Source: Crenothrix polyspora
Lineage (GTDB): Bacteria > Pseudomonadota > Gammaproteobacteria > Methylococcales > Methylomonadaceae
Direction: 5' to 3'
NCBI RefSeq assembly: GCF_900163745.1
Contig: NZ_FUKJ01000429.1
Span: 1 to 33,478 of the forward strand
Length of the DNA stretch: 33,478 bases
The notes beneath the pieces were generated by a model. It was not told the origin of the DNA. It saw only the letters and a program-made list of their open reading frames with translations, and did no database searches. Position numbers and translations under genes: made by a program. Positions within the stretch are counted from its first letter, which is position 1. Every line of letters begins with the position of its first letter. Shown in pieces: positions 5,111-32,038 of the stretch.

Positions 5111-5737
5111 ATGAACCCAGTTTATCATCAAGCAAAATTTATTAATAGCTCCCCGCATCTTAAGGACACTCCGGACGATCAGGGACTGGAAATTGCGTTT
5201 GCAGGTCGATCCAACGCTGGAAAGTCCAGCGCCATTAATACCTTGACCCGGCAAAACTCGCTAGCGCGTATCAGTAAAACGCCAGGGCGCACACAAATGT
5301 TAAATTTTTTTGCTATTACCGAACAGCAACGCTTTGTCGATTTGCCAGGATATGGCTATGCCAAAGTGCCTGATGCGGTGAAAAAACAATGGCATGCACT
5401 GATGGAAACCTATTTGAGCCAACGCAAGTCGCTGTGTGCGATTGTATTGGTGATGGATATTCGCCATCCATTAACGGAATTTGACTGGCAAATGATTAAC
5501 TGGTGTCACCATTCCGGTTTGCCGCTGCATATTTTGCTCAGTAAAGCGGATAAGTTGACCTATGGCGCGGCTAAAAACACCTTGCTCGCCGTGCAAAAAC
5601 AGCTAAAAGAAATACCGGTTCCAATAACCCTACAGTTATTTTCTTCGCTAAAGAAAACCGGTGTTGATGAAGTGCATCAAGCACTCGATCTTTTTTTCAG
5701 TTTCTCTCAAGGTGAAGCGAATCCAGTTGATGGTTGA
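5111..5737 (+). CDS. engB: ribosome biogenesis GTPase EngB (YihA/YsxC)
   Basis: Essential small GTPase needed for assembly of the large ribosomal subunit. All G motifs are visible: G1 GRSNAGKSS (about residues 32-40), the TPGRTQ segment for G2, G3 DLPGYGYA, and G4 LSKADK. The length of 208 residues is normal. The ATG is preceded by a modest GAGA ribosome binding site. It diverges from cytochrome c4/dsbA, an arrangement shared with Pseudomonas. The stop is followed by hairpin-forming and repeat sequence rather than by another gene. Confidence 0.96.
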   Translation: MNPVYHQAKFINSSPHLKDTPDDQGLEIAFAGRSNAGKSSAINTLTRQNSLARISKTPGRTQMLNFFAITEQQRFVDLPGYGYAKVPDAVKKQWHALMETYLSQRKSLCAIVLVMDIRHPLTEFDWQMINWCHHSGLPLHILLSKADKLTYGAAKNTLLAVQKQLKEIPVPITLQLFSSLKKTGVDEVHQALDLFFSFSQGEANPVDG

Positions 5738-29440: not shown

Positions 29441-29501
29441 GTAGTCAAAGTAGTGAGCTGTGCTCGGCACAAACCTTGGTTCACTAAATTTACTTTGCTA
29501 C
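29441..29501. repeat. imperfect inverted repeat overlapping the antitoxin 3' end
   Basis: GTAGTCAAAGTA (29441-29452) can pair with TACTTTGCTAC (29491-29501) with one bulged base. GTGA/TCAC forms an inner stem and a small GTGC/GCAC hairpin lies in the centre. The right arm covers the antitoxin stop codon. It may be a transcript-end structure for the toxin-antitoxin operon or a remnant of the ends of an inserted unit. Confidence 0.35.
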
Positions 29502-29804
29502 TACGGCCAAAATAGCAGCCGGATTGGATTGTGCAATAACGAGCAACGTGCGTGCAGCGCCGCTGGGTTGTTTTCGGCCTTGTTCCCAGCCTTGCAAGGT
29601 GCGCACTGAAACGCCCAATAGAGTTGCGAACTGCGATTGCGAGAGCCCCGTTTTTTTACGCGCCTCAATTGCTTCGGAGTAGATGACACGGCCTTGGCCT
29701 GTTTTCATTTCATGAATGGAGTGCAGCAACTCAGCACCCAAATCACGTTGTGCCTCATAGGCCTCAAGCTCAATGCTGGATAGGATTTTAGTCTTCGAGA
29801 GCAC
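29490..29804 (-). CDS. higA: HigA/NadS-type helix-turn-helix antitoxin
   Basis: A 104-residue cytosolic protein. Residues about 45-95 form a Cro/C1-type helix-turn-helix (KKTGLSQSQFATLLGVSVRTLQGWEQGRKQP). It should neutralise the upstream toxin and repress the operon. The start is GTG, with a strong AAGGAG seven bases ahead that lies inside the toxin gene. The 17-base overlap with the toxin and this strong site should favour antitoxin synthesis. The toxin-first order is the HigBA arrangement. The symbol is given by type, not by demonstrated orthology. Confidence 0.85.
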   Translation of the reverse strand: MLSKTKILSSIELEAYEAQRDLGAELLHSIHEMKTGQGRVIYSEAIEARKKTGLSQSQFATLLGVSVRTLQGWEQGRKQPSGAARTLLVIAQSNPAAILAVVAK

Positions 29805-30099
29805 GGCGTATCTCCTTAAGGATTGAACCAGTGAGGTTGTTTGTTTTGGACTTGGCGTATAAAGTAAGCAAGACTAATTCGCCTCGTGCAGTACGAGTGA
29901 AGTAGATAACTCGAACACCACTGGACTTGCCTGATCCTTCGCGTGCCCACCGAACCTTACGCAACCCGCCAGATTCAGGCACTACATCACCAGCATCGGG
30001 GTGTGCCGAAATGTAAGCGGCAAACGATCCGCGCTCTTCTTCCGTCCAGTAGTGTGGCCACTGCTTCTGAAAGAGCGGCGTTTCGATTACAGTAAGCAT
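29788..30099 (-). CDS. higB: HigB/RelE-family toxin
   Basis: A 103-residue basic protein of the RelE/ParE superfamily, HigB2-like, expected to cut mRNA on the ribosome. Family features are FQKQWPHYWTEEER, the GLRKVRWAREG strand-loop, SGVRVIYF and ELVLLTLYAKS. The frame opens with GTG at 30114, but the ATG at 30099 has GGAAG eight bases upstream and gives the usual length and start (MLTVIETPLF). It is first in the operon, overlapping the antitoxin by 17 bases. The pair is compact and bounded by non-coding AT-rich sequence, which fits a horizontally acquired cassette. Confidence 0.87.
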   Translation of the reverse strand: MLTVIETPLFQKQWPHYWTEEERGSFAAYISAHPDAGDVVPESGGLRKVRWAREGSGKSSGVRVIYFTRTARGELVLLTLYAKSKTNNLTGSILKEIRRALED

Positions 30100-30100
30100 G

Positions 30101-30190
30101 CTATAGACTTCCACTGATTTATCTATAACACACTGATTAAAATTAACTTTATTTTTGCAAAATGGAAGTTATTTATCTGAAAAACTATAG
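30101..30190. promoter_or_regulatory. toxin-antitoxin promoter and candidate operator region
   Basis: This AT-rich region holds repeated short motifs: CACTGATT at 30112-30119 and 30131-30138 (19 bases apart), ACTTCCA at 30107-30113 against TGGAAGT at 30163-30169, ATTTATCT at 30117-30124 and 30171-30178, and CTATAG at 30101-30106 and 30185-30190. On the minus strand TATAGAT near 30125 could be a -10 box. Repeats like these upstream of a helix-turn-helix antitoxin operon are likely autoregulatory sites. The rest of the gap to 30412 shows only the palindrome listed next. Confidence 0.4.
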
Positions 30191-30412: not shown

Positions 30413-32038
30413 ATGAGAAATAAAACAAGGCACTACTCAACACTGCTTGGAGCAATTTCTTTGGCCAGCATCGCTGTTCGGCCTGCGTTTGCTCAAGAAG
30501 TAGACCCATCCACTCTGGGTGATGATTTTAGAATTATGCACCATGAACCCCTTAACAACATCCGTTTTAGCACACCTGGAGCTTCAGGAAATTCGCGGAT
30601 CGCTGCAAAGAGGGCAGCAGCAACTACCGTTTTGTTAAAAGCTTTTGGAAAGCAATTCGACTTGGCACTTGAACCCAATGATCAGCTGGTTGCTAACTTG
30701 CCAATGGCGCAAAAGAACCGCCTTAAAAAATCGATGCGATTGTACAAAGGCCGGTTAACGGGAGTAAAGGGTTCGTGGGCCAGAATTAATAAAGCCGGTG
30801 AACACATCACCGGTGCATTTTGGGATGGTAAGGAGCTCTATATCATCGATAGATCAGATGATGTCGCTAAAGCCATTGCCGGTAAACAATTTGCAAAGGT
30901 AGCCGCCCAACCGTATTCACTTATTTACAAGCTTTCTGAGACCGAATCCGATGCCACCTGTGCCTTAGACCCCAAAGTCAAAAGTATTCATAAATTTCAA
31001 AAACTCGTAGGGGAACTGCAAACACGCGCTAAAGCCTTGCCTGCAACGACCCGTCAGCTTGATGTCGCTATTGTTACTGATGCCCAATTCACCCAGGCGA
31101 ATAGCGCCAATCCACAAGCTGCTGTTGTCGCGCGGATGAATGTTGTCGATGGCATTTATTCAGATCAAGTTGGCGTTCATATCAATGTCAGCGAAATCCG
31201 GGCATTAACAAACGATGGCGCTATGACTTCGACAAGCTCGACAACATTGCTTAACCAGTTCTCCAGTTTTACAACCGTCCCTGGCTTTAATAATCCCGGT
31301 ATCGCACATCTTTTCACCAGTCGCAATATTGATGGCTCTACAGTCGGTATAGCTTACATTGGCGCGTTATGTTCCAAAGGTTATGGCGTGGGGCTAAGTC
31401 AGGTAACTGGAACAGGGACGGCAGGTGCTTTAACGGTTGCCCATGAAATGGGACATAATTTTGGCGCACCTCACGACAGCCAAAGTGGGTCAGCTTGTGC
31501 CAGCACGCCAGGCACTTACGTTATGAATCCGTTTTTGAATGGCAGTAGCCAGTTTTCTCCATGCAGTTTACAACAGATGTCACCAAACATCGCCAAAGCC
31601 GCCTGCATGACAAATACTAATAACCCACCCACACCCATACCCACGCCTGTACCCACACCCACAAATAACGCAGATGTGCGTCCTGTGTTTCTGTTCAACC
31701 CTATCAATACCAATGTATCCAAAAATTTTACTTACCGCGTTGAAGTGAGAAATGGCGGCATGGGCGCAGCCAAAAACGGCTCGGTAAACATTAGTATACC
31801 GGTAGGCTTAAGCGTATATGGCGCTACAGTCAGTACCGGTTTTAGTGCATGTACCAATACTGCCAGATTATTGAGCTGTAAGTTTGCGACATTGGCACCC
31901 AATACCACCAAGGCGATTGCTATCTCCCTTAGAACCGGCGCTAAACCTGTGCGTCTAATCAGTACTGTAAAAGTCACAGCGAGCAACGATAGTAATGCAA
32001 CCAATAATATCGGCAAAGAGGCCATCGATGTCCGTTAG
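30413..32038 (+). CDS. secreted metzincin (M12B/reprolysin-like) zinc protease with prodomain
   Basis: A 541-residue exported protease. A signal peptide covers about 1-28 (ending AFAQE). A prodomain resembling the M12B propeptide family follows (about 30-185, with RLYKGRLTGVKGSWARI at 109-125). A lone Cys183 in ATCALDPK could act as a cysteine switch. The catalytic domain begins near 213. The zinc site HEMGHNFGAPH at 344-354 fits HEXXHXXGXXH (H344, E345, H348, H354), and M371 is the likely Met-turn. A Pro-Thr linker (405-418) leads to a C-terminal Ig-like domain of DUF11/CARDB type (421-541). No membrane anchor or sorting signal was seen. Substrate unknown; a single gene. Confidence 0.88.
   Translation: MRNKTRHYSTLLGAISLASIAVRPAFAQEVDPSTLGDDFRIMHHEPLNNIRFSTPGASGNSRIAAKRAAATTVLLKAFGKQFDLALEPNDQLVANLPMAQKNRLKKSMRLYKGRLTGVKGSWARINKAGEHITGAFWDGKELYIIDRSDDVAKAIAGKQFAKVAAQPYSLIYKLSETESDATCALDPKVKSIHKFQKLVGELQTRAKALPATTRQLDVAIVTDAQFTQANSANPQAAVVARMNVVDGIYSDQVGVHINVSEIRALTNDGAMTSTSSTTLLNQFSSFTTVPGFNNPGIAHLFTSRNIDGSTVGIAYIGALCSKGYGVGLSQVTGTGTAGALTVAHEMGHNFGAPHDSQSGSACASTPGTYVMNPFLNGSSQFSPCSLQQMSPNIAKAACMTNTNNPPTPIPTPVPTPTNNADVRPVFLFNPINTNVSKNFTYRVEVRNGGMGAAKNGSVNISIPVGLSVYGATVSTGFSACTNTARLLSCKFATLAPNTTKAIAISLRTGAKPVRLISTVKVTASNDSNATNNIGKEAIDVR

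Follow-up and report, generated by a model that had tools for sequence, protein, structure and literature searches.

The protease gene and its domains

The window, by which we mean the whole stretch of 33,478 nucleotides analysed here (Crenothrix polyspora, contig NZ_FUKJ01000429.1, positions 1 to 33,478), carries a gene for a reprolysin-type protease close to a toxin-antitoxin pair. The features are as follows:

29490-30114, minus strand: toxin-antitoxin pair, an HTH antitoxin and a RelE-like protein (the latter just below the Pfam cut-off)
30413-32038, plus strand: protease open reading frame, 541 aa, ATG start, one intact frame with no internal stops
30413..30493, plus strand: probable Sec signal peptide, residues 1-27, cleavage after ...PAFA (translation read by eye)
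30494..31048, plus strand: prodomain, residues 28-212, with an ADAM17-type core at 62-186 (family profile A3, switch-free profile, AF2)
30959..30961, plus strand: Cys183 codon TGT, candidate zinc-binding switch cysteine (column conservation, alignment with ADAM17)
31049..31615, plus strand: reprolysin (M12B) catalytic domain, about residues 213-401 (PF13688, E 2.7e-28; PDB matches)
31442..31474, plus strand: zinc-binding motif HEMGHNFGAPH, residues 344-354 (invariant in alignment A1)
31523..31525, plus strand: Met-turn methionine Met371 (invariant in 65/65 rows of A1)
31619..31672, plus strand: Pro-Thr-rich linker PPTPIPTPVPTPT, residues 403-420 (from the sequence; pLDDT <50 at 406-420)
31706..32035, plus strand: C-terminal DUF11 beta-domain, residues 432-535 (PF01345, E 9.1e-11)

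Five reprolysin Pfam models passed their cut-offs in the window protein, Reprolysin_5 (PF13688) at residues 212-382 (E 2.7e-28) and four others, and its assignment to M12B is based on the HEXXHXXGXXH motif, the Met-turn and the family profile; His344, Glu345, His348 and His354 are invariant in all 65 rows of alignment A1 (see below). When the single sequence was compared with the PDB, the matches were catalytic domains of snake venom metalloproteinases, ADAMs and ADAMTSs, the best of them in the snake venom enzymes of the adamalysin family (E 3.9e-18). The likeness to these enzymes lies in the catalytic domain, whereas the propeptide model Pep_M12B_propep (PF01562) stayed below its cut-off in the window protein (E 0.073, 14.1 vs 23.7 bits, 28 residues). 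In addition, the window protein gave no disintegrin or cysteine-rich Pfam match and no transmembrane part was seen in it by eye; judged from its sequence, it is not an ADAM proper. The signal peptide, catalytic site and Pro-Thr linker described in the first-pass annotation were all recovered, the signal peptide and linker by eye, and the tail it called Ig-like corresponds to the DUF11 domain. Cysteines occur at positions 183, 320, 362, 384, 398, 480 and 489, and Cys183 alone precedes the catalytic domain, in agreement with the single cysteine noted earlier near the prodomain end.

Genomic neighbourhood

The toxin-antitoxin pair lies 298 bases from the protease gene, but it is divergent from it and does not lie upstream within one unit, so that the earlier description of a protease following the cassette has to be corrected. 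In a genome of the same genus (G002), a DEAD-box helicase gene is followed by a RelB/YafQ pair (L084 915-1428), behind which lies the start of the protease gene, ~105 codons long; this fragment (L093 1-410, G002:C156) diverges after these codons, within 90 bases of the contig end. The acylphosphatase gene of G002 has other genes downstream, and in a third genome of the genus the contig ends at the protease site. Unrelated pairs, HTH/RelE-like in the window and RelB/YafQ in G002, fill the same gap between helicase and protease, and this gap is a possible insertion hot spot.

The proximity of the pair, together with the rarity of the gene among the surveyed relatives (of 101 genomes that gave any match, 5 carry it, one of them that of the window), would fit if the gene belonged to a mobile toxin-antitoxin island or encoded an antibacterial toxin delivered to competitors. 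However, the start of the gene adjoins the same helicase in the same-genus genome next to an unrelated pair, and two different cassettes at one spot, with protease sequence beside both, speak against a mobile island that carried the pair and the protease together, as well as against the earlier suggestion that the two had been acquired jointly. Furthermore, no immunity gene was seen in the window and no delivery domain in the window protein, and we regard this explanation as highly improbable; the toxin-antitoxin neighbour looks incidental. The earlier remark that no immunity protein or secretion system lies nearby holds for the immunity gene, but the genome does encode elsewhere a type II secretion secretin, GspD, which scored above its cut-off and makes type II export possible.

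Relatives and conservation of Cys183

Relatives were collected by a genome scan with peptide patterns that excluded Cys183. The scan found 108 stretches encoding relatives, of which 80 loci were kept, and the addition of whole-genome matches gave 87 loci, with 78 open reading frames at phmmer E 1e-5 and 77 with the zinc motif HE..H.....H. More than one row came from some loci (three from L045, two from L056), and the window's own entry is L001. Alignment A1 contains the window protein and 64 of the 74 eligible rows (65 rows); L048, L051, L060, L063, L069, L071, L074, L075, L076 and L079 were left out by choice. L083 and L003, used for comparison below, share 47% and 48% identity with the window protein over almost its whole length. 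A clear second relative or paralogue is also present in the window's genome (L002 961-2808, G000:C297), with a cysteine ahead of its mature domain (FRCDVD) and repeat units in its tail, and L045 (485-6692) comprises three adjacent reprolysin open reading frames on one Phycisphaerae contig, all with the cysteine. The C-termini of L004, L005, L006, L007, L009, L011 and L012, which are of Lysobacterales type, share a recurrent Phe/Tyr-x-x-Gly-Phe-Glu-like motif, possibly a sorting or anchoring signal.

Of the 77 relatives, which come from several phyla, 67 have a cysteine in the Cys183 column, often followed by Gly-Val. In A1 the count is 59/65, the exceptions being L004, L005, L006, L007, L010 and L014, and among the ten rows omitted from A1 seven have the cysteine and three do not. 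Within residues 62-212 only Gly113 (94%) and Cys183 (91%) exceed 90% in A1; the motif of the window protein is C-A-L, versus the common C-G-V. Additionally, a separate sample was taken by searching for Reprolysin_5 in 274 genomes of the same class regardless of prodomain, and was screened with a prodomain model in which the Cys column had been masked (prodomain called at E <1e-3, the window's own locus excluded). A prodomain was present at 17 of the 29 loci examined, with a cysteine in ten and none in seven, under a looser rule that accepts a Cys anywhere 140-215 residues ahead of the zinc motif. The cysteine is therefore common but not universal, and 67/77 overstates its frequency in Gammaproteobacteria. 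The first-pass annotation had made its idea depend on Cys183 being conserved in homologues, which is the case in most of them, alongside several losses in which the prodomain was kept.

The same annotation considered that pairing of Cys183 with another cysteine would count against a switch. By analogy with adamalysins, we assume that the four catalytic cysteines of the window protein pair among themselves, as do the two in the tail, and Cys183 then appears to be unpaired. The six rows of A1 that lack the cysteine retain exactly four catalytic cysteines, so that loss of Cys183 leaves no orphan, which argues against a disulfide. Across the family, 53 of the 59 switch-bearing rows have no other prodomain cysteine; catalytic cysteine parity in these 53 is mixed (33 even, 20 odd), and a cysteine near the mature N-terminus is found in 20 of the 65 rows. 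L003, the nearest relative, has a second cysteine four residues upstream of the switch (CTGSC, 5559-5573), and by its sequence this pair might form a disulfide of its own, disabling or regulating the switch there. A conserved and apparently unpaired cysteine at the end of the prodomain was thus found at the level of sequence.

Homology of the prodomain to ADAM17

Profile A3, built from 61 prodomains taken from the 65 rows, retrieved from the PDB below E 0.1 only five distinct ADAM17 prodomain sequences (E 2.2e-13 to 2.5e-12), aligned in register up to and including the ADAM17 switch Cys-Gly; Cys183 shares its column with the ADAM17 switch cysteine (K-V-C-G-Y). A switch-free control profile, in which everything from about residue 167 was removed, found the same five ADAM17 sequences only (5.3e-9 to 5.3e-8). 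The link to ADAM17 runs via the relatives, because neither the window prodomain alone nor a 14-row gammaproteobacterial prodomain profile found ADAM17 in the PDB, and a profile of 45 non-gammaproteobacterial rows reached the window protein marginally (E 0.23 scaled to PDB size). At the same scale this 45-row profile gave 1.1e-7 for L083 and 6.7e-4 for L003, with no reversed decoy at E <100, and the identity of ~47-48% between these two and the window protein carries the ADAM17 homology across to the latter. The ADAM-type prodomain is recognized in this way through the family and not from the window sequence alone.

The Pfam propeptide model was of little help here. Its match to the window protein was rejected as standalone evidence because it is too weak, and it was not rescued by a PF01562 scan of all 65 and all 61 alignment members, which matched 4 of the 61 prodomains at E up to 5 (best 0.019). 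The M12B-type propeptide proposed earlier consequently stands on the family-profile homology to ADAM17 and not on the sub-threshold Pfam match. We are confident that the prodomain is homologous to that of ADAM17.

Predicted structure

The AF2 model of the window protein has a mean pLDDT of 80.7 and a pTM of 0.69. Blocks of the prodomain at residues 71-150 have mean pLDDT values of 91-95, and confidence drops to 50-58 at residues 181-210, with an average of 58 for 181-190. When the model was searched with Foldseek, ADAM17 zymogens ranked first. They also form the top four rows in VIA-align (Z 28.5-29.6, rmsd 3.3-3.5 A over 313-328 residues, model 37-408), where the superposition covers both prodomain and catalytic domain, whereas the other listed rows are confined to the catalytic domain, with Z no higher than 24.8. 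The matched ADAM17 zymogen structures are dated 2024-2026 and presumably are newer than the training set of the AF2 version used here, which makes copying unlikely. Profragilysin was outside the top 50 VIA-align rows, which is no evidence of a different fold.

The model of L005, a relative without the cysteine from Aquimonas voraii, also superposes on ADAM17 zymogens (Z 25.4-27.3, 3.6-4.4 A); its pLDDT is <50 at 152-155 and 159-190. The group without the cysteine has acidic residues near the Cys183 position, where confidence in the L005 model is low, a feature that recalls the aspartate-switch idea.

Taken together, profile homology, the two-domain fold match and the position of Cys183 in the ADAM17 switch column uphold the ADAM-type zymogen architecture proposed in the first-pass annotation, and there is good support for an exported zymogen that combines a reprolysin domain with a prodomain of the ADAM17 type. 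The differences from human ADAM17 (TACE) are that the window protein is bacterial, ends in a DUF11 tail and is without disintegrin, cysteine-rich and transmembrane parts.

History of the cysteine

An unrooted tree of 90 prodomain-bearing catalytic domains, scored with the same looser rule, contains 77 with the cysteine and 13 without. This label changes five times on the tree, compared with 12.4 times when labels are shuffled (none of 500 shuffles was as low), and at least four of the five changes are forced by well-supported branches. The tree and the separate sample both indicate several losses of the cysteine with the prodomain kept. All 13 rows without it come from Gammaproteobacteria, labelled either with the window's class or as Pseudomonadota under Lysobacteraceae and related names, and the rows that bear it include Bacteroidota, Planctomycetota, Acidobacteriota, Ignavibacteriota, Candidatus Zixiibacteriota and Gammaproteobacteria. 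We infer that the cysteine is the ancestral state.

Proposed mechanism and alternatives

The explanation that we consider probable is that the gene product, a zinc endopeptidase destined for export, is synthesized as a zymogen resembling that of ADAM17, with Cys183 as a zinc ligand. The protein would be exported by Sec and then possibly released through a type II system. Its prodomain, a beta-barrel of the ADAM17 kind according to family homology and the predicted fold, would dock onto the reprolysin domain, and the segment ending in Cys183 would occupy the active-site cleft. The position of this cysteine, its conservation and its lack of a partner suggest that its thiol would complete the coordination of the zinc as a fourth ligand besides His344, His348 and His354, and would push out the catalytic water. 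Cleavage within the low-confidence and probably flexible stretch of ~residues 184-212 would release the prodomain. By analogy with ADAM17, the whole prodomain is probably the main inhibitor and also a chaperone, with the cysteine strengthening the inhibition, and such prodomain-dominated inhibition fits the bacterial lineages that kept the prodomain and lost the cysteine. Position and conservation make a cysteine switch in the window protein likely, and we have good confidence that Cys183 would touch the zinc in the zymogen; we rather doubt that it is strictly required for latency.

The prodomain could also be an ADAM17-type inhibitor and folding chaperone in which Cys183 is a dispensable leftover, latency coming from the prodomain filling the cleft. 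The relatives that keep a prodomain without the cysteine (6/77 in one supported group, plus others) are in line with this, as is the superposition of the L005 model on ADAM17 zymogens. In ADAM17 itself Cys184 ligates the catalytic zinc, and yet it is reported as dispensable, since prodomain mutants without it still inhibit (PMC12184519, PMC11248996). We nevertheless find this reading unlikely, because the prodomain diverges elsewhere and just two of its columns, the cysteine being one, exceed 90%, across phyla, and an unpaired cysteine so well kept in an exported protein suggests selection. A disulfide within or between chains, leaving Cys183 with no role at the zinc, would be compatible with the second cysteine of L003, the cysteines near the mature N-terminus and the mixed parity. 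It is opposed by the fact that every other cysteine of the window protein can pair without Cys183, by the four catalytic cysteines retained in the cysteine-less group and by the 53 rows with no other prodomain cysteine, and we give it very little credence.

Known systems and significance

Bacterial cysteine switches are already known in other metzincin families. The pro-segment of mirolysin (M43, Tannerella forsythia) is short, and neither mirolysin nor myroilysin (M12A, Myroides) has a beta-barrel prodomain. Both are bacterial metzincins, like the window protein, with published cysteine-switch latency: the Cys23 variant of mirolysin is reported to activate much faster or to be degraded (PMC8259862), and the switch of myroilysin is cited in PMC9848320, where the pro-segments of astacins such as this enzyme are described as essentially unstructured. 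Fragilysin-3 of Bacteroides fragilis is, like the window protein, a bacterial adamalysin-like zymogen, and Foldseek matches profragilysin to our model (E about 1e-10), although it superposes less well (rmsd about 8-9). It differs in its reported aspartate switch, a distinct latency mechanism, and in its proposed descent from a host ADAM (PMC9848320). In the literature searched, mostly that outside subscription journals, there was no report of a cysteine switch in a bacterial M12B protease. A 2025 paper on the ADAM17 structure states that the prodomain had no homologous structure in the PDB (PMC12184519).

Lastly, we lean slightly towards the view that the full ADAM17-style zymogen, a beta-barrel prodomain with a cysteine switch and a reprolysin domain, did not originate with animals but is common to many bacterial phyla, where it would have been overlooked because the bacterial prodomain is unannotated, and that it was repeatedly pared down to a switch-less form in Gammaproteobacteria. 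The protease family bears on the proposal that an animal host was the source of a bacterial adamalysin (PMC9848320). In addition, bacterial relatives, being soluble, could serve as simple systems for work on folding and inhibition by ADAM17-type prodomains, and the natural groups without the cysteine offer a ready comparison on the question of what the switch cysteine does, which is disputed. As far as sequences can indicate, a safety catch of the kind known from animals seems widespread among bacteria.
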